A stretch of DNA of 22,064 nucleotides from a virus. The notes beneath the pieces were generated by a model that saw nothing but the letters and a program-made list of their open reading frames with translations, ran no database searches and had not been told where the DNA came from. Of the stretch, positions 7,513-19,784 are shown in pieces (position 1 is the first letter of the stretch; every line of letters begins with the position of its first letter). The stretch covers positions 1 through 22,064 of the IMG/VR virus record IMGVR_UViG_3300008110_000474. One strand, 5' to 3'. The position numbers were made by a program, and so were the translations under genes.

Positions 7513-8096
7513 TCGTACCATTCCAACTCAAGCAGCGCCGTGTGCTCTGTGCCATTGACATTGGTCAATCTGAATAGGTAATTGGTGAGCGGTGCAAGAA
7601 CATACTCCAAGCTTCCAGACGCACCGCCTGCTGATTTTTTCCCAGTGCCGCCAGTGATGAACTGCCGATTGATCAGCGTTCCCAATGTGGTTACGGTAGG
7701 ATTGGTAACCATCGCAACATTGCTGGTAGTGTCAATGTTTCTGTTTCTGCGAACAGGCGTAAACGCTGTGCCGCCAGTGGTGCTTGTTTCTTCGTAAACA
7801 AAGAAATCACAGTCACCAGACGATTCCATTGCAATGGTCACATGAGCAATTGTCCCAGGCCCAGCAGCAAGCACAATATCAGCGCTTGAACCTGATGCAA
7901 GCTTTGCAGAGTCAGGATAGATATTCCAAGCGATGAATGCGCGGCCTTCATGCAAGCGCTGATGGTTGATGTCAACCATAATCAGCCCGTTGTCAGACCC
8001 AGCAATCATTTGACTGCCGTCTTTGTCCTTCTGCGTCAGCGCGACAAACTGAGCCTTTTGCGGCTGCGACTCGCGCTCAACATACAGAACCGCCAT
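7509..8096 (-). CDS. Predicted virion structural protein
   Basis: The product has 195 residues with beta-rich, Gly/Thr-rich composition. It begins MAVLYVERESQPQKAQF, includes GLIMVDINHQRLHEGRAFIAW near residues 38-58, a threonine-rich loop STTGGTAFTPVRRNRN, and ends with NVNGTEHTALLELEWYE. Proteins with the VD.NHxxxHEG element and a terminal EWYE occur widely in tailed-phage virion clusters, usually annotated hypothetical, and probably decorate the head or form a short fibre. The fold and location are inferred from composition and neighbourhood only. It is coupled to the gene before it (stop at 8096) and after it (ATGA). Confidence 0.65.
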   Translation of the reverse strand: MAVLYVERESQPQKAQFVALTQKDKDGSQMIAGSDNGLIMVDINHQRLHEGRAFIAWNIYPDSAKLASGSSADIVLAAGPGTIAHVTIAMESSGDCDFFVYEETSTTGGTAFTPVRRNRNIDTTSNVAMVTNPTVTTLGTLINRQFITGGTGKKSAGGASGSLEYVLAPLTNYLFRLTNVNGTEHTALLELEWYE

Positions 8097-12402: not shown

Positions 12403-12996
12403 CTACCTGCTACCCTGCACTTCGGCCAGCAAACGCTCGGCGCTCGGCACTGGCAGACCTTCGGCACGGTACGCTGCGGCCAGCGCGTCAACGGCTGACT
12501 GTTGATTGATTGTCGAATCAACTAGTCTTTCCTCATAAGTATCTTGACTAGGTTCATTAACTGTACTTATGTTAGTTTTCTTGCGTTTGCCTTTGGACAT
12601 GTCTCGCCTTTCCTGTAGATGCACTGCTAGTTCACCGGCCATGCTGGCCGCATCTGCTGCGGATAATTCTGTCGCGTAGACTATCCGCAGCGTATCTCCG
12701 GCCTTCCCTTTCCGGCCTCCCTTGATCCGCTCAACATAACCTAGTGCCTTAAGCTTGGACATCTGCCGGTTCACTGCTGGCGCTGATACACCTAAATCCT
12801 GGCCGATCCGCTGCTGACTCGCCCAAAGGTATCCGGCCTTATTGGCATAGGCTGCTGACTGCATCAATACCCGAAGCGCTGCTGGCCGTAACCTTCTGTC
12901 GTTAATCGCGCGGTACGGCAGCACCACAAAACGCCGTCTATCCTCGTTCGCATGCTCTGCCAGCGCTGTTTGCTCGGGTATCTGGAATGCCGTCAT
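12403..12996 (-). CDS. Winged-helix DNA-binding protein (possible replication or regulatory protein)
   Basis: The 197-residue product has an N-terminal winged-helix domain. RRFVVLPYRAINDRRLRPAA and LRVLMQSAAYANKAG are followed by a helix-turn-helix SQQRIGQDLGVSAPAVNRQM and a wing LGYVERIKGGRKGK, spanning about residues 20-100. The C-terminal half is basic then Ala-rich and contains no recognised motif. This layout occurs in plasmid- and phage-borne replication or regulatory proteins, but I cannot assign a specific Rep family. No Shine-Dalgarno site is visible; a TAGAAT hexamer (13008-13003) ends 6 bp before the ATG, which would give a leaderless or very short-leader mRNA. The gene is divergent from the plus-strand cassette at 13137 and shares a control region containing an FNR-like box. 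Confidence 0.75.
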   Translation of the reverse strand: MTAFQIPEQTALAEHANEDRRRFVVLPYRAINDRRLRPAALRVLMQSAAYANKAGYLWASQQRIGQDLGVSAPAVNRQMSKLKALGYVERIKGGRKGKAGDTLRIVYATELSAADAASMAGELAVHLQERRDMSKGKRKKTNISTVNEPSQDTYEERLVDSTINQQSAVDALAAAYRAEGLPVPSAERLLAEVQGSR

Positions 12997-13023
12997 GTCA
13001 GTATTCTAGGTTAGTGGTTACTC

Positions 13024-13037
13024 TTGATCTAGATCAA
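13024..13037. promoter_or_regulatory. Perfect FNR/ANR-type box
   Basis: TTGATCTAGATCAA is a perfect 14-bp palindrome that matches the FNR-family consensus TTGAT-N4-ATCAA exactly. It lies between two divergent genes, 100 bp before the plus-strand ATG at 13137 and 28 bp before the minus-strand ATG at 12996. Another regulator with a similar palindrome is possible. Confidence 0.6.
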
Positions 13038-13055
13038 TGTTCCAGTAAATAACCT

Positions 13056-13083
13056 TTGCATGCGGAACTAAGCATGCTATTGT
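13056..13083 (+). promoter_or_regulatory. Candidate promoter and leader of the DUF7249/DUF7227 cassette
   Basis: TTGCAT (13056-13061), a 16-bp spacer and TATTGT (13078-13083) form a plausible sigma70 promoter. The FNR-like box would be centred about 60 bp before the transcript start. GCATGC occurs twice in the spacer region. The leader can form a GCACT/AGTGC hairpin (13093-13112). Confidence 0.4.
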
Positions 13084-13136
13084 GCTGTCCATGCACTGCG
13101 CTCATGTAGTGCGCTAACCCAAAAAGAGGATAGACC

Positions 13137-13424
13137 ATGATGGAAAAGACCTATAACGGCTGGACCAACTACGCTACATGGCGAGTTAACCTTGAGATAT
13201 TTGACGGCATGCCGATAGAGGAATTCAACGGCATTAATGACCCAGTAGAGCCGGAACTGATCTGCGTGCATACGCTAGCGGAGGCCGTAAAAGAGCGAGC
13301 GGAATATTACATAGAAAGCACATCCAGTGCTGGCCTCGTCCTCGACTATGCTTTGGCTTTCCTATCCTATGTGAACTGGAAGGAAATTGCACAGCGCTTA
13401 ATTGATGACTATACCGCCGAATAA
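13137..13424 (+). CDS. DUF7249-like small protein
   Basis: The 95-residue acidic product begins MMEKTYNGWTNYATWRVNLE, the NGWTNYATW..NLE signature that I associate with DUF7249, a family spread over plasmids and phages. The rest is helical (HTLAEAVKERAEYYIE and IAQRLIDDY) with no catalytic motif. GAGGA lies 6 nt before the ATG, within a leader string repeated before the next gene. A second ATG follows immediately, so initiation could be at either codon. It is first in a five-gene plus-strand cassette that ends at the terminator near 14700. Function unknown. Confidence 0.8.
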   Translation: MMEKTYNGWTNYATWRVNLEIFDGMPIEEFNGINDPVEPELICVHTLAEAVKERAEYYIESTSSAGLVLDYALAFLSYVNWKEIAQRLIDDYTAE

Positions 13425-13439
13425 CTAAGAGGATAGACC

Positions 13440-13625
13440 ATGAAACAAATCACCGTCACAATGAAACAAATCTACGGCAGCACAACTTACTACCCTGCCT
13501 GTGCTGATTCCCTGCTGTTCGCTCGCATTGCCGGTACTAAGACCCTGACACCAGCAGCGCTGTCTGCAATCAAGGCACTGGGCTACCTGATAGTGCTACA
13601 GCAAGAAACCCTGACCATTGATTAG
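13440..13625 (+). CDS. Small conserved accessory protein
   Basis: The 61-residue product reads MKQITVTMKQIYGSTTYYPA, then ADSLLFARIAGTKTLTPAAL and a helix ending GYLIVLQQETLTID. The KQ.YG..YYP and GTKTLT elements are seen in small proteins that accompany DUF7249 and DUF7227 genes on plasmids and phages. The leader aagaggatagaccatga is identical over 17 bp to that of the preceding gene, which argues the two are both translated and perhaps arose in a common module. Function unknown. Confidence 0.7.
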   Translation: MKQITVTMKQIYGSTTYYPACADSLLFARIAGTKTLTPAALSAIKALGYLIVLQQETLTID

Positions 13626-13633
13626 TGCCACCT

Positions 13634-13661
13634 AGCAGCGCGTTAACACTAGCGCGCTGCT
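13634..13661 (+). other. Strong intercistronic hairpin
   Basis: AGCAGCGCG (13634-13642) pairs perfectly with CGCGCTGCT (13653-13661) across a 10-nt loop. No T-run follows, so it is probably an mRNA stability or partial attenuation element between the second and third cassette genes. Confidence 0.6.
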
Positions 13662-13707
13662 GGATTGTCACTCCCGGCAATCGTTTACCCATGAAGAGGA
13701 AACGACA

Positions 13708-14394
13708 ATGCATGTTCACCTGACACCCAAAAGCGCGAATGTTAAGACCGGACCGATACCTGTCAGCACCAGCAGCAGAGAATCCTGCCCGGATACCTGC
13801 CCATTGAAAAAAGCCGGATGCTATGCCGATGCCGGGCCGCTGGCCCTGCACTGGAACAAGGTAACAGACCAGCAACGCGGTACAGACTGGAATACCTTCT
13901 GCGACAGTATCGCAGCACTGCCACCCGGTCAATTGTGGCGGCACAATCAGGCCGGTGATCTGCCGCACCAGCACGGCCGCATCGATGCCGCAGCGCTTGA
14001 TCTGCTGGTGTCTGCAAACCACGGAAAACGCGGATTCACCTATACGCACCACGATGCCGCGATCAATGCCGATCTGCTGGCCACTGCTAACATCAGCGGA
14101 TTCACCGTGAATCTGTCAGCGAATGATCTGCACCATGCCGATGCGCTGGCCGATTCAGGATTGCCAGTGGTGGCCGTGCTGCCGATAACGCAAACCAGCA
14201 ACACCAAAACACCAGCAGGGCGCGCCGTGGTGGTATGTCCGGCCACCGTGCGCGAGGATGTTAGCTGCGCGACATGCCAATTGTGCGCCCGTGCTGATAG
14301 GTCCGTGATAATCGGATTCCCGGCGCACGGCACTAGCGCCAAAAAAGCCGATTCTGTCGCGCGCCGGGTGATACCGCTAAAGGTGGCCGCATGA
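13708..14394 (+). CDS. DUF7227-like cysteine-rich protein (possible TIM-barrel enzyme)
   Basis: The 228-residue product starts MHVHLTPKSANVKTGPIPVS, followed by Cys27, Cys31 and Cys38 (SCPDTCPLKKAGCYAD) and LWRHNQAGDLP near residue 76. The core then alternates predicted strands and helices: GKRGFTYTH at 106, ISGFTVNLSAND at 129 and LPVVAVLPITQ at 152. Residues 177-193 hold Cys177 and a CATCQLC motif, before IIGFPAHGTS. Eight cysteines in two clusters suggest metal or Fe-S binding. The serial strand-helix units resemble the gp88 and DUF5131-type phage proteins thought to be related to radical-SAM barrels; that link is inference. GAGGA lies 7 nt before the ATG. The substrate is unknown. Its TGA overlaps the next gene (ATGA). 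Confidence 0.75.
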   Translation: MHVHLTPKSANVKTGPIPVSTSSRESCPDTCPLKKAGCYADAGPLALHWNKVTDQQRGTDWNTFCDSIAALPPGQLWRHNQAGDLPHQHGRIDAAALDLLVSANHGKRGFTYTHHDAAINADLLATANISGFTVNLSANDLHHADALADSGLPVVAVLPITQTSNTKTPAGRAVVVCPATVREDVSCATCQLCARADRSVIIGFPAHGTSAKKADSVARRVIPLKVAA

Positions 14395-14570
14395 ATCAGA
14401 CCGAGCAATTAACTATAGCGCTGGTCATGGCACTGACAGCGCCAACAGATGCACAAGCGAAGCGCGCTAGTGATCTGGCCGAGGAAATATCGTCCGGACT
14501 AACAGCGGAACAGGTAAAACATTGTAAGTACGCGGCACTAGCGGTAATTGAATTCGAGGAGACAAAATGA
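14391..14570 (+). CDS. Small helical protein coupled to the DUF7227-like gene
   Basis: The 59-residue product begins MNQTEQLTIALVMALTAPTD and continues AQAKRASDLAEEISSGLTAE, then a helix with one Cys. It is acidic and probably two or three helices; a similar small gene often follows DUF7227-like genes in mobile elements. It overlaps the upstream stop by ATGA and the downstream start by ATGA, so all three are translationally coupled. Function unknown. Confidence 0.75.
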   Translation: MNQTEQLTIALVMALTAPTDAQAKRASDLAEEISSGLTAEQVKHCKYAALAVIEFEETK

Positions 14571-14665
14571 ATAATTCAGGCGATATTGCAGTAGCATTTT
14601 TTTGTGCGGCCGTGGCCGTGGTGGCCGTAGTGCTGGCCGTATTTGAGACCTTCAATAGACTGTAA
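14567..14665 (+). CDS. 32-residue single-span membrane peptide
   Basis: The reading frame encodes MNNSGDIAVAFFCAAVAVVA followed by VVLAVFETFNRL. A hydrophobic stretch covers residues ~7-26, flanked by an acidic N-terminal side and a basic C-terminal end, as expected of one transmembrane helix. GAGGAG ends 5 nt before the ATG, and the gene forms an ATGA overlap with its neighbour, so translation is very likely despite the length. It is the last gene before the terminator. It might anchor or regulate the cassette's other products; a holin-like role cannot be excluded but has no support. Confidence 0.7.
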   Translation: MNNSGDIAVAFFCAAVAVVAVVLAVFETFNRL

Positions 14666-14681
14666 AACCTAACAGAATCAC

Positions 14682-14708
14682 GGCCAGCCTGGTGCTGGCC
14701 TTTTTTTT
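14682..14708 (+). terminator. Intrinsic terminator of the cassette
   Basis: GGCCAGC (14682-14688) and GCTGGCC (14694-14700) form a perfect 7-bp stem with a 5-nt loop, followed by eight T (14701-14708). It lies 16 bp after the last stop codon. Confidence 0.95.
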
Positions 14709-14718
14709 ACCTGCTGCC

Positions 14719-14916
14719 GCTGGTGGCCGGTCTGCTGCCGCTCGCCTTTCGGGGCTGGCGGTGTGTTGCTGCGCGCCTGTTAAATCAGGCCGCTGGTGGC
14801 GCTCGGCCGTGTTGCTGGTGGTGGTGTACCGGCGCGCTGCTGTTCGTGCCGTGGTGGCCGCGTTATCGGCCTTGCTGCTGGCCTGCGGCCTGCTGCTGGT
14901 GGCCGTGCGCTGGTGG
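14719..14916 (+). repeat. Cluster of five E. coli-type Chi octamers
   Basis: GCTGGTGG occurs perfectly at 14719-14726, 14792-14799, 14814-14821, 14895-14902 and 14909-14916, all in the same orientation, with several one-mismatch copies nearby. A sixth perfect copy is inside the recombinase gene at 16576-16583. Low-complexity sequence is the simplest alternative explanation. Confidence 0.6.
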
Positions 14917-15160
14917 CCGGTATCTTGGCGCTGCTGCTGGCCTGCCGCTGGCCTGCTGCTGGTGCGCGCTGTCCGGGTGGTGGCCGGTGGCCTGGCCGGT
15001 GGCCGGATGCGGCCTGAATAATCAGCAAAGCGCTGCTGGTTACCGCGCTGCAACATGGCGCGACACCCCAGGATTGCACTCAAAACTCCCCATATGGGAG
15101 GCGGCCAGAAATTTTCTTGGCCGAATTCCGCTTTTGAATTCAGCCAGCCTGTCAGGATTC

Positions 15161-15183
15161 TGTGTCAATTTTACTTTGACACA
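15161..15183. promoter_or_regulatory. Perfect 8-bp inverted repeat, operator-like
   Basis: TGTGTCAA (15161-15168) and TTGACACA (15176-15183) are separated by seven A/T-rich bases. The site lies 38 bp beyond the stop of the DUF7696-like gene. It could be an operator, a recombination site or a weak terminator stem; a T6 run on the minus strand is on the wrong side for it. Confidence 0.45.
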
Positions 15184-15221
15184 TTGGGAAAAAAGGCAGG
15201 CACTTCTCAGCCGCCAGAGAA

Positions 15222-15512
15222 TCAGACACCCTGCGCTTTGGCCTTGCGATGCACCGCCACCATCGCCCCACGCAGTGCGTTGTAGCCAACCATGCCACGC
15301 GCAGCCTTGACTCCGGCCAGGTAGTCGGCCTTGCTGGGCTTGACCTTGGTCTTGCCCTTCCAGATCGGTTCGTCAGGGTAGGTTGCCAGCACCAGCCGCG
15401 CCTCGCACTCGGTCATCCAGTCTGGGCACTCATTGCAGACCTGCCGCCCATCCACCAGAGTGACGCTGGAGGTTGGCCTGCCCAGGCAGCGCGTCGAGTT
15501 GTCGCAGATCAT
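15222..15512 (-). CDS. DUF7696-like protein
   Basis: The 96-residue basic product has N-terminal cysteines (C3, C9) and a central VDGRQVCNECPDWMTECEAR with C26, C29 and C36. KADYLAGVKAARGMVGYNAL follows, with a basic end. The VC..CPDW..ECEAR block followed by Y..GV...RG is the pattern of DUF7696, frequent in phage recombination regions. The cysteines may hold zinc. Its ATG overlaps the RuvC-like stop (ATGA), so it is the third gene of a minus-strand operon. A partnership with the resolvase is suggested by position only. Confidence 0.7.
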   Translation of the reverse strand: MICDNSTRCLGRPTSSVTLVDGRQVCNECPDWMTECEARLVLATYPDEPIWKGKTKVKPSKADYLAGVKAARGMVGYNALRGAMVAVHRKAKAQGV

Positions 15513-15973
15513 GGCTGTAGCTGGGTGTCGAGCGCCCAGTGCAGAATGGCAATGGCATCAGCCTCGTTGTCGTTCTCCACGGGATGGCCCTTGGCTTTAG
15601 CCGCTGCGATCATTTCATCCTTGCCAGCGTTTCCCTTCCCGGTTGCATGTTTCTTGATCGTGCCAACAGGGACACCTTGATAGGCGATGCGGTGGTGCTC
15701 GCACCACGCAGTCAGTACGGCCAGGAAGCCACCGTAGACATGAGCCGCATCAGTCCCGGCATGGCGGCGCACTTCCTCAAAGTAAACGGCATCCACCTGG
15801 CCCAGCTGGTTCTTGATCTCGGTCAGCCAGTTCTTGAAGCGCAGGTAACGCATGCCACCACCCTCGTAGCGCCCCGGCTTGAAGGTGATGTAGCCATGAC
15901 TGATCATGCCATCGCTGGATGCTGCCCAGCCGCTGGTAGTCCCAAGGTCCAGTGCTAGGATGACCTCTCTCAT
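15509..15973 (-). CDS. RuvC-like Holliday junction resolvase
   Basis: The true start is the ATG at 15973 (MREVILALDLGTTSGW), which forms an ATGA overlap with the upstream gene; a longer upstream extension is out-of-frame shadow. The 154-residue protein has RNase H-fold acidic residues: Asp9 in LALDLGTTSG, Glu66/67 in VYFEEVRR and Asp139 in NDNEADAIAI. A basic loop VGTIKKHATGKGNAGKDEM lies between. Length and motif order match phage RuvC-like nucleases that resolve branched DNA before packaging, which suits a phage with exonuclease/RecT recombination. It acts as a dimer in relatives. Confidence 0.88.
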   Translation of the reverse strand: MREVILALDLGTTSGWAASSDGMISHGYITFKPGRYEGGGMRYLRFKNWLTEIKNQLGQVDAVYFEEVRRHAGTDAAHVYGGFLAVLTAWCEHHRIAYQGVPVGTIKKHATGKGNAGKDEMIAAAKAKGHPVENDNEADAIAILHWALDTQLQP

Positions 15974-16149
15974 CGCTGCCCCAGCATCTGGTTGAGTCTG
16001 GACTGCGTGTCGCTGTAGCGTGGCGTGAGCGCCTGCCGGATGCACTCTTCGATGATGCTGGCACGGGAGCGGCGCTGGTCCTCGGCTGCTTTGTCCAGCA
16101 AGGCGCGACTCTCTGGCCGCAGCCGCAGGGTGAATACTTTCTGTCGCAT
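15970..16149 (-). CDS. Ribbon-helix-helix DNA-binding protein
   Basis: The 59-residue product begins MRQKVFTLRLRPESRALLDK and continues AAEDQRRSRASIIEECIRQA. This is the ribbon-helix-helix pattern: a basic strand (KVFTLRLR), helix A, a polar turn (RRSRAS) and helix B (IIEECIRQAL). AAGGA lies 7 nt before the ATG. It heads the minus operon RHH / RuvC-like / DUF7696 and is divergent from the recombinase. It probably regulates the shared promoter region (16150-16324), where several inverted repeats are present. An antitoxin role is possible in this family, but no toxin-like neighbour is seen. Confidence 0.82.
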   Translation of the reverse strand: MRQKVFTLRLRPESRALLDKAAEDQRRSRASIIEECIRQALTPRYSDTQSRLNQMLGQR

Positions 16150-16209
16150 GGGAGTCCTTTTGTATAGCTGTCTGATAGACCAATGGTAACGGACGATACC
16201 CTAGAAAAC

Positions 16210-16223
16210 TTGACCAAGATCAA
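16210..16223. promoter_or_regulatory. FNR/ANR-type box, one mismatch
   Basis: TTGACCAAGATCAA matches TTGAT-N4-ATCAA except for one base. It lies 102 bp before the recombinase ATG, nearly the same distance as the box at 13024-13037 from its ATG. An adjacent CAAGATTCTTG palindrome (16221-16231) might bind the RHH protein instead. Confidence 0.5.
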
Positions 16224-16241: not shown

Positions 16242-16270
16242 TTGTCAGACCGTTTGTTGTGGGTTAGAGT
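16242..16270 (+). promoter_or_regulatory. Candidate promoter of the recombination operon
   Basis: TTGTCA (16242-16247), a 17-bp spacer and TAGAGT (16265-16270) fit sigma70 well. Transcription would start near 16277, placing the FNR-like box at about -60. The leader contains a hairpin GTGTAGCG-CAA-CGCTATAC (16280-16298, one G-T pair) before the GAGGAG ribosome site. Confidence 0.5.
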
Positions 16271-16324
16271 CCGGTCATGGTGTAGCGCAACGCTATACCC
16301 AACCACCCAGATCGAGGAGTTGAC

Positions 16325-16984
16325 ATGGAATACATCGCATACTATCGCGTCAGCACAGACCGCCAGGGCAACAGTGGCTTGGGTCTTGAGGCGCAGCAGG
16401 CCGCGGTCAAACAGCACGGCGGCACTGTCATTGCTGAGTACACCGAGATTGAAAGCGGCGGCAAGTCATGCCGTCCCCAGTTGCTGGCAGCACTGGCCGA
16501 GTGCAAGCGCACTGGCGCAACCCTGATCGTAGCCAAGCTGGACCGGTTGGCGCGTGATGCCAAGCTGATCCTGACGCTGGTGGACGAAGGCGCGAAGGTC
16601 AAGTTCCTGGACCTGCCGGAGATCGACACCGAGGGGCCGATTGGCAGGCTGATGCTGACCATCATCGCTGGCGTAGCCGAGTTTGAGCGCCGCATCATCT
16701 CCAAGCGTACCAAGGAAGCGCTGGCTGTCAAGAAAGCGCGCGGCGTGAAGCTTGGCTGTCCCTACCCGGAGCGTGGCGGCGCTATTACTGGTGGCCGTGC
16801 CAAGTCCAGGGCACTGCTCGCTGCCCAGCCACTGGCCGCAGTCCTGGCTGAGATCAGGCAACTAGGGTTCACCACCATCCGCGAGATACAACAGGAACTC
16901 ATGGCACGGGGAATCGCCACGCCATCAGGCAGCAAATCATGGTCTACCAGCGCAGTTCAACGGCTAATTGGGAGGGTTGGGTGA
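16325..16984 (+). CDS. Serine recombinase (resolvase/invertase family)
   Basis: The 219-residue protein has the catalytic Ser10 in YYRVSTDRQ, the conserved KLDRLARD at residues 71-78 and EFERRIISKRTKEAL at 119-133. Residues ~140-219 hold a basic helix-turn-helix region (FTTIREIQQELMARGIATPS, then SWSTSAVQRLIGRVG). It lacks the long zinc and coiled-coil domain of large serine integrases, so it is of resolvase type and probably acts on a nearby res-like site for multimer resolution or inversion. GAGGAG lies 5 nt before the ATG. It leads a long plus-strand operon. A perfect Chi octamer falls within it at 16576. Confidence 0.9.
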   Translation: MEYIAYYRVSTDRQGNSGLGLEAQQAAVKQHGGTVIAEYTEIESGGKSCRPQLLAALAECKRTGATLIVAKLDRLARDAKLILTLVDEGAKVKFLDLPEIDTEGPIGRLMLTIIAGVAEFERRIISKRTKEALAVKKARGVKLGCPYPERGGAITGGRAKSRALLAAQPLAAVLAEIRQLGFTTIREIQQELMARGIATPSGSKSWSTSAVQRLIGRVG

Positions 16985-17046
16985 GCGAGATCATTGCGTG
17001 GTATCTGGTTTTTTTGTTGGTTGTTGTTCTAATTTACGGAGGTTGA
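16981..17046 (+). CDS. 21-residue membrane microprotein
   Basis: A GTG start overlaps the recombinase stop by four bases (GTGA), and the frame encodes MSEIIAWYLVFLLVVVLIYG plus Gly. Residues 4-19 are continuously hydrophobic. Its last codons contain the GGAGG that serves the next gene, so its translation may control access to that site. It could be a real peptide or a leader that couples genes; the lack of its own strong ribosome site is expected for coupled starts. Confidence 0.5.
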   Translation: MSEIIAWYLVFLLVVVLIYGG

Positions 17047-17047
17047 T

Positions 17048-17317
17048 ATGAAACTGATGGACATTTTCTTTTCGCTGATGGATGGCTATGACCCACCGAT
17101 CATGCTGCCGCATGAGGCGATCATGGCGTGGAGGCCAACCGATCCTCGGCGCTATGACACGGTCCGTGCCGAGTGCATAAAGACATTGCGTGAGAGTAAC
17201 CGGTACATTTTGGACGGCCATTTCACGCCGACAAAGGCCAGCAATACTGACATCACAGTCACCTTCACGCGAGTGCGCCAGCAGCACGGAGAAACGCTGA
17301 TCCAGGTGGCGCAATGA
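17048..17317 (+). CDS. Small protein of unknown function
   Basis: The 89-residue product starts MKLMDIFFSLMDGYDPPIML and continues with a charged middle (WRPTDPRRYDTVRAECIKTL) and a strand-rich end. No known family is recognised. A GGAGG site 4 nt before the ATG and the ATGA overlap with the lipoprotein gene support it. It sits between a recombinase and a lipoprotein in one operon, with no hint of a specific role. Confidence 0.7.
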   Translation: MKLMDIFFSLMDGYDPPIMLPHEAIMAWRPTDPRRYDTVRAECIKTLRESNRYILDGHFTPTKASNTDITVTFTRVRQQHGETLIQVAQ

Positions 17318-17559
17318 AGACCATGCTGGCATTTCTGTCGGTGATCCTGGGCGGCTGCGGCAGCATGCAAGAAGCGGTCAGCAACCTGCAAGTGGACAAG
17401 GATATTCAGGCAATGAGTCGAGCGGAGGTCATCGCAGGCATCAACGAATGCGAGAGCGCTGGGCAACGGGCAGTAGTACTAAGCGCCAAGCGGCGCATCA
17501 ATGGACAGGTGATCCCGGCTCCCGTCGAGGTTACCTGCCTTCCAAAACTAAAATGGTGA
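17314..17559 (+). CDS. Small phage lipoprotein
   Basis: The 81-residue protein has a short signal peptide MKTMLAFLSVILGGCGSMQE with an LGGC lipobox; Cys15 would be lipidated after cleavage. The mature part (about 67 residues) is polar, with SRAEVIAGINECES, AVVLSAKRRING and a C-terminal VEVTCLP. A second and a third Cys could form a disulfide, consistent with a periplasmic location. Phage lipoproteins at such sites sometimes block superinfection or change the envelope, and spanin subunits are also lipoproteins, but there is no lysis cassette here. Coupled to the gene before it by ATGA. Confidence 0.72.
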   Translation: MKTMLAFLSVILGGCGSMQEAVSNLQVDKDIQAMSRAEVIAGINECESAGQRAVVLSAKRRINGQVIPAPVEVTCLPKLKW

Positions 17560-17566
17560 GGTGGCG

Positions 17567-17788
17567 ATGAGTCAGAATACTGATGTATTGGCGTACATGA
17601 AAAAGAACAAAGGCATCACCAGCATGCAGGCGATCATGGACCTGGGAATCACGCGACTGGCCGGACGCATCTGGGAGTTGCGGATGGATGGGCATCTGAT
17701 CCTCGACTACTGGGTCAAGGTCAAGACACGGGCTGGACGCGAGGCGAAAGTAAAACGCTATGTTTTGCAACCGAAAGGAAAAAAATAA
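17567..17788 (+). CDS. Small winged-helix protein
   Basis: The product has 73 residues from the ATG at 17567, which GAGGTGG precedes. It reads MSQNTDVLAYMKKNKGITSM, then a helix-turn-helix MDLGITRLAGRIWELRMDGH and a basic wing ending RYVLQPKGKK. This compact winged-helix form is common just upstream of phage recombination genes and may regulate them or bind DNA ends. TAATG links it to the exonuclease gene. Confidence 0.8.
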   Translation: MSQNTDVLAYMKKNKGITSMQAIMDLGITRLAGRIWELRMDGHLILDYWVKVKTRAGREAKVKRYVLQPKGKK

Positions 17789-18741
17789 TGGTCAGTAAAG
17801 TCACGCCGGACACCATGATGTCGGCCAGTCGGTTGCCGTCACTCATGGGATACAGTAAGTACAACACCCCCAATGACGAACTGCAATACAGCATCCGCGC
17901 CTTGCAAGACATGGAGCGGCCGGACATTGGCAACGAAGCAATGGCCTGGGGCAATCAGATGGAGCCTTTGATCTTGTCCGAGGCGGCGCGCAGGCTGGGA
18001 CTAAGCGATGTTGTGCTGGACCATCCAACAGCTTGTTATCACCCAGCCATCCCGCTGTGCTGCTCTCTCGACGGCACTGGCAATGGCCGAGGCCAGGTGA
18101 TCCGCACCGATCCTGACAAGGGCATCTATGTTGTTGGCCAGGACAGCATCAACTTGCATGGCGTGGGGGTGCTTGAGGCCAAGTTGACCAGTGTCCGGCC
18201 AGAAGATGCCCCGGCCCTGTACCGTGGTCCGATCCAACTGCAAGGCCAGATGGACATCATCCAGGCACAGTGGGGTGCGGTATGTGTGCTGTACGGCGGC
18301 ACGGAATTACGCATCTTCCTATTCGCCCCGCATGTCGGAACGGTCACTCGGATAGTGGAAGCGGTCAGGGACTTTCAGCGGCGGCTCGACAATTGGAAGG
18401 CCACCGGCGAGATCGATTTCTACCCGCCGTCGAGCAGCAAGGATGCGGACAGGATGTACCCAAAGGCCGAGGACATCGAGGTGGTGCTGCCGCCAACAGC
18501 CGAGGAACTTGTAGAAAAAATCAAGGCAGCACAGGCCGTGGCTTTGCAGGCAGAGACTGACCGCAGCAAGGCCGAGGCCGATCTTAAGGTCTTGATGGGG
18601 ACGGCCACCACTGGCGTGATCGGAAACTATCGAGTGTCCTGGCCTATGCGTAGCTACTCGGCCAAGCCAGCCAAGGTCACCCCGGCCAAGGAAGCGTACT
18701 CAATCCGTCAATCTAATCTCTCAATCAAGGAACGCAAATGA
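17788..18741 (+). CDS. YqaJ-type 5'-3' exonuclease
   Basis: The 317-residue enzyme shows the lambda-exonuclease/YqaJ core. Glu59 is in WGNQMEPLI, Asp95 in SLDGTG, Glu130 and Lys132 in LEAKLTS, and Gln152/154 in QLQGQMDI. These residues bind Mg2+ and cut one strand from DNA ends, giving 3' single strands for the annealase. The C-terminal ~70 residues are an Ala/Glu-rich helix (AAQAVALQAETDRSKAEADL) and a basic tail. It is paired with recT through an ATGA overlap, the usual exonuclease/annealase order. Confidence 0.9.
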   Translation: MVSKVTPDTMMSASRLPSLMGYSKYNTPNDELQYSIRALQDMERPDIGNEAMAWGNQMEPLILSEAARRLGLSDVVLDHPTACYHPAIPLCCSLDGTGNGRGQVIRTDPDKGIYVVGQDSINLHGVGVLEAKLTSVRPEDAPALYRGPIQLQGQMDIIQAQWGAVCVLYGGTELRIFLFAPHVGTVTRIVEAVRDFQRRLDNWKATGEIDFYPPSSSKDADRMYPKAEDIEVVLPPTAEELVEKIKAAQAVALQAETDRSKAEADLKVLMGTATTGVIGNYRVSWPMRSYSAKPAKVTPAKEAYSIRQSNLSIKERK

Positions 18742-19784
18742 GCAACATCACTACCCGCCAAGGGTTCGCACCCCAGACATTTACCGAGTGCCGCCAGTTC
18801 GCCGAGGAGTTGGCATCATCCAGCCTAGTCCCCAAGCAGTACCAGGGAAAATCGCAAGACATCTTGGTCTGTGTCCAGTGGGGAATGGAACTCGGCCTCG
18901 CTCCCATGCAGGCGCTCCAGAACATTGCGGTCATCAACGGCAAGCCCAGCGTATACGGTGACGCAGCGCTGGCGCTGGTCCAGGCCAGTCCGGTCTGCGA
19001 GGGTGTCGAGGAAACAATCGAGGGCGAAGGCACTGCCAATCCGGTGGCCGTCTGCACCTGCCATAGGAAGAACCGTCAGCCGGTCACAGCCAGGTTCAGC
19101 GTCGAGGATGCCAAGCGCGCTGGGCTGTGGGGCAAGCAAGGTCCGTGGCAGGCGTACCCCAAGCGCATGCTCCAGATGCGCGCCCGTGGCTTTGCGTTGC
19201 GCGATGCCTTCCCTGATGTGCTGAAGGGTCTGATCACCGCCGAGGAGGCCCAGGATTACCCGACAGAGCGCGATATCTCTCCGGTCAAAACCAACCCGCT
19301 GGATGCCATTGCGCCGCCAGTAGCGCCAGCAGAGTTGATCTACAACATCCCGGCTGAGACAATCACGGCAGAGATGCTGGAGCAGGTAGTCGAGCCGGTA
19401 GAGGTAGCGCAGACTGCGGAGCAATTGAAGGCCGAGTTCGAGGCGGCTGGCATCGAAGTGGTTGCAGTTGAGACAGTGCAAGAACTGCCGAAAGCAGCGC
19501 CGCGCATGTATCGCTTGATGGTTCCAGGAAAGGAAGAGCCGGTCAAGGAATTCGATGAACCGCTGGAGTTCATCAAGGCATACGAAGACCTGGCCGAGAG
19601 GACTGCCCGTGCTGGAAAAGCGCCGCACCGGGATCGCATGACCAAGCTGCGCGAGTTGCGCGAGGCCAATGAGCAAACGCTCAAGGCCATGCCGGTGGTG
19701 CAGAGGACCGCGCAAAGCGCGGCGTACAGCCATCGCCTTGCTGCTCTGGGCGCGGCCATGAAGGAGGCTGGCGATGCAAGTTAA
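18738..19784 (+). CDS. recT: RecT-family single-strand annealing protein
   Basis: The 348-residue protein has the family core QTFTECRQFAEELASSSLVP, SQDILVCVQWGMELGLAPMQ, LQNIAVINGKPSVYGDA and KRMLQMRARGFALRDAFPDV, in residues ~10-165. The second half (residues ~180-348) is longer than in many RecT proteins, acidic and helical, with QTAEQLKAEFEAAG. It anneals single strands produced by the adjacent exonuclease during recombination-dependent replication. The stop overlaps the start of the next small gene by 11 bases. Confidence 0.93.
   Translation: MSNITTRQGFAPQTFTECRQFAEELASSSLVPKQYQGKSQDILVCVQWGMELGLAPMQALQNIAVINGKPSVYGDAALALVQASPVCEGVEETIEGEGTANPVAVCTCHRKNRQPVTARFSVEDAKRAGLWGKQGPWQAYPKRMLQMRARGFALRDAFPDVLKGLITAEEAQDYPTERDISPVKTNPLDAIAPPVAPAELIYNIPAETITAEMLEQVVEPVEVAQTAEQLKAEFEAAGIEVVAVETVQELPKAAPRMYRLMVPGKEEPVKEFDEPLEFIKAYEDLAERTARAGKAPHRDRMTKLRELREANEQTLKAMPVVQRTAQSAAYSHRLAALGAAMKEAGDAS

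Follow-up and report, generated by a model that had tools for sequence, protein, structure and literature searches.

Two FNR-type palindromes that lie in divergent control regions of a podophage-like virus are probably binding sites for a host activator of the CRP/FNR superfamily, one with the specificity of FNR, ANR or FixK, and their placement would suit class I activation of two rightward promoters. The virus is represented by a 22,064-base IMG/VR record, all of which was analysed and which is called the window here. Box 1 lies between a replication-initiation-like (rep-like) gene on the minus strand and an accessory operon on the plus strand; box 2 lies between a ribbon-helix-helix (RHH) gene on the minus strand and a recombination operon on the plus strand (Table 1).

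Table 1. Features of the two control regions and their surroundings. Coordinates are those of the window unless a locus is named.
Feature	Coordinates	Strand	Basis or remark
Rep-like gene: replication-initiation-like winged-helix protein (HTH_36)	12403..12996	-	Protein/domain comparison, relatives
Rep-like gene -10, TAGAAT; predicted leaderless promoter	13003..13008	-	TARAAT-N6-ATG conserved in relatives
Box 1, TTGATCTAGATCAA; perfect FNR-type palindrome ("FF" site)	13024..13037	.	Sequence match
Accessory operon promoter, sigma-70-like: TTTGCA, 17 nt, TATTGT (13078-13083)	13054..13083	+	Predicted
Accessory operon: DUF7249, small ORF, DUF7227, small ORF	13137..14570	+	Putatively driven from box 1
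RHH gene: ribbon-helix-helix (Arc/CopG-like) protein	15970..16149	-	RuvC-like gene next
RHH/RuvC operon promoter: TTACCA (-35), 17 nt, TATACA (-10)	16161..16189	-	Predicted
Box 2, TTGACCAAGATCAA; FNR-type palindrome, one mismatch	16210..16223	.	Sequence match
Recombination operon promoter: TTGTCA, 17 nt, TAGAGT (16265-16270)	16242..16270	+	Predicted
Inverted repeat GGTGTAGCG-CAA-CGCTATACC, separate from box 2	16279..16299	.	Near-invariant in box-2 alignment
Recombination operon: serine recombinase, small ORFs, YqaJ/RecE-like exonuclease, RecT-like annealing protein	16325..19784	+	
TAGGG-N4/5-CCCTA palindrome of distant loci, examples (range L020-L064)	L047:5285-5299, L031:5891-5904		

The structural genes of the window are oriented leftward, and its portal, terminase and capsid proteins resemble those of Methylophilales phage MEP301 (MW452941; 78%, 76% and 79%, respectively). 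Gene order is partly common to the two genomes, and uncultured relatives share the same kinship in these three proteins and a partial gene order with the window. However, MEP301 has no FNR-type box anywhere in its genome, and its rep-like and RHH-like proteins are distant from those of the window (36% and 42%). A GC-rich stretch of low complexity, made up of CTGCTGGTGGCC-like repeats, lies at about 14690-15020, after the accessory operon and before the RuvC operon, and has BLAST matches in many genomes.

The preliminary description had reported an exact FNR-consensus palindrome and a one-mismatch copy of it, ending 100 and 102 nt before the ATGs of the two rightward operons and followed by candidate -10 hexamers that start 41 and 42 nt past the box ends; all of these sequences and positions were confirmed. 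Box 1 is an exact TTGAT-N4-ATCAA, the consensus of Escherichia coli FNR and Pseudomonas putida ANR. Downstream of both boxes are sigma-70 -35 and -10 elements that are kept in relatives. From the centre of box 1 it is 24 nt to the -35 and 47 nt to the -10, and the corresponding distances for box 2 are 25 and 48 nt. If the -10 begins at -12, the predicted centres are at about -59.5 (box 1) and -60.5 (box 2), and a -10-to-start distance that is 1-2 nt longer would put the centre at -61.5; overall, the predicted centres fall between about -59.5 and -61.5, with the transcript starts taken from the promoter sequences. Class I sites of FNR are located at -61.5 or -71.5 (PMC6343905), and among the 23 mapped FNR-activated promoters of E. 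coli one natural site is at -60.5, class I being rare in that set, in which 19 of the 23 are class II (PMC3688515). Sequence, geometry and conservation in relatives thus give good support to the part of the preliminary reading in which FNR/ANR-type boxes occupy a class I position.

Each box also faces a leftward promoter, which the preliminary description had not mentioned. On the RHH side, 50 nt separate the centre of box 2 from the -10 downstream of it. Box 1 is 15 nt upstream of the opposing rep-like -10, with its centre 22 nt from that hexamer, and it covers the predicted -35 region of the rep-like promoter. A class II site at the rep-like promoter was considered and rejected, since 29 nt would be needed. 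The rep-like ATG follows its own -10 after 6 nt, and the rep-like mRNA seems to be leaderless, as judged from TARAAT-N6-ATG (12994-13008), which is kept in relatives. A further inverted motif, TGTTCC...GGAAC (13039-13070), flanks the -35 of the accessory promoter and is also conserved in relatives.

Could the palindromes be there by chance and have no function? In Markov-1 simulations (n = 4000) of the window's intergenic DNA (2.6 kb), the pattern TTGAY-N4-RTCAA was expected 0.0067 times, and none of the 4000 simulations had two or more copies, against the two observed; for the strict form of the pattern, 0.0025 intergenic copies are expected. The whole window has three matches (0.12 expected), one of them in a coding gene. 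This third match, at 7555, is inside a structural gene, as are its homologues in loci L004 and L006, and it is not part of the feature. Identical boxes do occur by chance inside coding sequences of unrelated phages, but the intergenic excess, together with the constant position of both boxes across the clade, makes a chance origin extremely improbable.

The preliminary description had stated that boxes absent or mutated in close relatives would speak against the reading, and this is not the pattern that was seen. Relatives were collected from viral records (6 loci from a scan with the rep-like protein and 65 from a scan with the RHH protein), and the close clade consists of uncultured relatives with RHH proteins that are 92-100% identical; L003, a 100% identical copy, was left out of the counts. 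Box 1 is intact in all seven distinct contigs that cover it (the window, L004 to L008 and L018), with a constant position of -41 relative to the rep ATG. Of 13 contigs, 11 have an intact box 2 (the window, L004, L006, L007, L008, L010, L011, L014, L015, L016 and L018), whose position relative to the RHH ATG is -73 to -75; the exceptions are L013, with one broken half-site, and L005, in which the region is deleted. On the same strand, box 2 reads TTGATCTAGGTCAA in L010 and TTGATCTAAGTCAA in L015, and the altered letters are confined to the Y, R and N4 positions, where variation is permitted. The conservation of box 2 is clearly above that of its flanks, where about 0.5 of the columns are invariant. 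The flanks of box 1 are well conserved too (0.55-0.68 of columns invariant), and so the conservation of box 1 is weak evidence when taken by itself.

The spacing of the accessory promoter from box 1 is kept in L004-L007. In L008 a different sequence has taken the place of the promoter core beyond the -35, yet a -10 (TAGAAT) is found 47 nt from the centre of box 1. The genes behind box 1 differ among relatives while the box and promoter are constant, and the interval 13137-15221, like the same interval in L004-L008 and L018, appears as an accessory-gene slot of changing content. In L015 and many distant relatives the rep-like gene comes directly after a small gene like the one at 15222, with no island.

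The pattern in the wider family is different. None of the 53 more distant loci (L020-L072) has an FNR-type box at the slot. A simple pattern search found that 37 of these 53 have instead a TAGGG-N4/5-CCCTA palindrome in the box-2 slot, where the RHH and recombinase genes diverge. Since the clades have different palindromes there, the slot seems to hold sites for different regulators, depending on the clade.

Which protein reads the boxes? No CRP/FNR protein scored above the family cut-off in any virus record searched, and the sole CRP-type helix-turn-helix matches (HTH_Crp) were below the cut-off and mostly at the rep-like protein. This result would make a host FNR/ANR-type regulator the likely owner; most of the records are fragments, and so the absence is not complete proof.

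Two phage proteins encoded beside the boxes are alternative owners. The winged-helix protein, which the preliminary description had listed among its alternatives, might use box 1 for autoregulation or as an origin, with box 2 as a second site. Box 1 is 28 nt upstream of its gene, over the -35 region, and its helix-turn-helix is weakly similar to that of Crp. However, the recognition-helix region differs strongly among relatives (SAPAVNRQMSKL, SQPAVHRQIARL and SGVAVHYQLKKL) while box 1 hardly varies, which makes this protein an unlikely owner; in addition, homologues in the wider family are without such a box, and L015 has box 2 alongside a diverged rep protein. Ownership by the winged-helix protein is therefore weakened, and we regard it as very unlikely.

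The RHH protein is the main rival and is harder to dismiss. The boxes would be its operators, through which it would repress or autoregulate the divergent promoters and the accessory operon. Box 2 is immediately upstream of the RHH gene, and box and protein co-vary, the reading strand being KVFTLRL in the clade with the boxes versus KPFMVRL or KPFLTRL in relatives that do not have them. An RHH operator should overlap the promoter that is repressed, but about 60 nt lie between box 2 and each of the two predicted starts (it is at about -61 of either predicted promoter), which is a bad position for a repressor, and both boxes are too far upstream for the rightward promoters to be repressed from them. 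Better-placed candidate operators are available: the inverted repeat at 16279-16299, close to where the recombination transcript is predicted to begin, and a GTATAGC half-motif (16161-16167) at the RHH -10, and both are likely to be the RHH operators, as their positions suggest. Moreover, box 1, a textbook FNR site, has no RHH gene next to it. The RHH reading is thus weakened and we consider it unlikely.

A host FNR/ANR-type activator is the best explanation because the phage proteins fit worse and because TTGATCTAGATCAA is a literature FNR box. Every letter of it agrees with the box cited for FNR of E. coli and ANR of P. putida (PMC4505428), and the EtrA site predicted upstream of ccoN in Shewanella contains it (PMC3078092). 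A related alternative is that a host member of the CRP/FNR superfamily that does not sense oxygen, such as a nitric oxide sensor of the DNR/NNR type or an orphan FixK, reads the boxes, in which case the geometry would be the same and the signal would differ. Paralogues of the DNR, NNR and FixK types share the TTGAY-N4-RTCAA site. In Herbaspirillum seropedicae there are three orthologues of Fnr, and their motifs are related (PMC5934665), which also counts in favour of such a regulator. Against this, box 1 is the model site of FNR and ANR, and we give a regulator that does not sense oxygen only a small chance.

Attempts to find the host itself gave little. Relatives of the terminase in genome contigs were found on short and possibly misbinned MAG contigs and on one 186-kb Hyphomicrobiales MAG contig. 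A BLAST search of the window against 398 genomes of the phylum of the latter contig matched mainly the RuvC-like gene and gave no convincing host link, and no tRNAs that might have helped to predict the host were found.

IMG/VR was scanned for FF-type boxes followed at class I spacing by a TTG...TANNNT promoter, together with three control spacings, and there was no convincing general excess: five distinct non-coding lineages, this clade included, versus 1, 2 and 5 in the controls. A post hoc restriction to contigs above 40% GC looks better and is not relied on. In two unrelated phage contigs (L129:11417-11477 and L134:11703-11762) an FF box in intergenic DNA is followed at class I spacing by a good sigma-70 promoter; the promoter in L129 precedes a small, possibly RHH-like gene. 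A third contig, of 41 kb, has near its end (L075:1411-1487) a TTGACA-like promoter flanked by two FNR-type boxes, which are 63 nt from each other. By eye, its proteins suggest that it may be a Bacteroidota phage, in which case sigma-70 spacing means little, and its FF box of matching spacing was set aside as support.

Several known systems resemble the one described here. Like the class I FNR promoters of E. coli (a synthetic FF site at -61.5 and the natural one at -60.5), the window has the FF sequence in box 1, a centre near -60 and sigma-70 -35 and -10 elements; unlike them, it is a phage genome, the control regions are divergent, the starts are predicted and the dependence on FNR is putative. 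The ANR/FNR regulon of P. putida and the EtrA regulon of Shewanella have the same 14-bp site as box 1, but those regulons consist of host genes, whereas here phage genes would be controlled, and the E. coli promoters are mostly class II. The closest precedent is the gonococcal prophage NgoPhi1, which is induced anaerobically and whose gene NGO0472 has been assigned to the FNR regulon (PMC3032703). There, too, a phage gene is placed under host FNR, as would putatively be the case in the window; however, NgoPhi1 is a filamentous prophage in the chromosome, while the window is from a podophage-like virus in which two promoters each have a conserved class I box. The statement in the preliminary description that such a link was not known in podophages holds as far as a limited search of the open-access literature goes, which found no podophage report of an FNR-type link, but the prophage is a precedent (PMC3032703). 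Host FNR acting on phage genes is thus not new in itself, and the exchangeable slot, if that reading holds, would be the interesting twist.

We predict the following mechanism from the arrangement of the sites. The host regulator in its active form, which for FNR or ANR means at low oxygen, would bind the boxes as a dimer at about -60 and act there as a class I activator, bringing RNA polymerase to the promoter of the accessory operon from box 1 and to that of the recombination operon from box 2. The leftward RHH/RuvC promoter lies at nearly the same distance from box 2, which may serve both directions. Because box 1 overlaps the -35 region of the rep-like promoter, its occupancy could also repress the rep-like gene. 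The identity of the protein, the activation, the repression and the oxygen or nitric oxide signal are what we infer here, the signal from the site alone. Read in this way, the oxygen state of the host probably tunes two sets of phage genes.

A broader picture is offered tentatively, as a possibility that we rate as somewhat doubtful. In a clade of podophages of a freshwater type, a habitat suggested by the IMG sample identifiers, class I sites would tie a recombination operon and a swappable accessory slot to the oxygen sensor of the host, and from the same site the leaderless rep-like gene on the opposite side could be turned off, so that the phage would switch programmes where oxic and anoxic conditions meet. 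In sister phages this input would have been swapped for TAGGG-N4/5-CCCTA, and the activator slot at box 2 would be an exchangeable host-sensing module.

If this is true, the respiratory state of the host would set part of the phage life cycle through the host's own regulator, which would provide a concrete mechanism for oxygen-dependent phage infection, for example in lake oxyclines. The combination of a constant promoter and changing cargo would also indicate how accessory genes could arrive already wired to a host signal.
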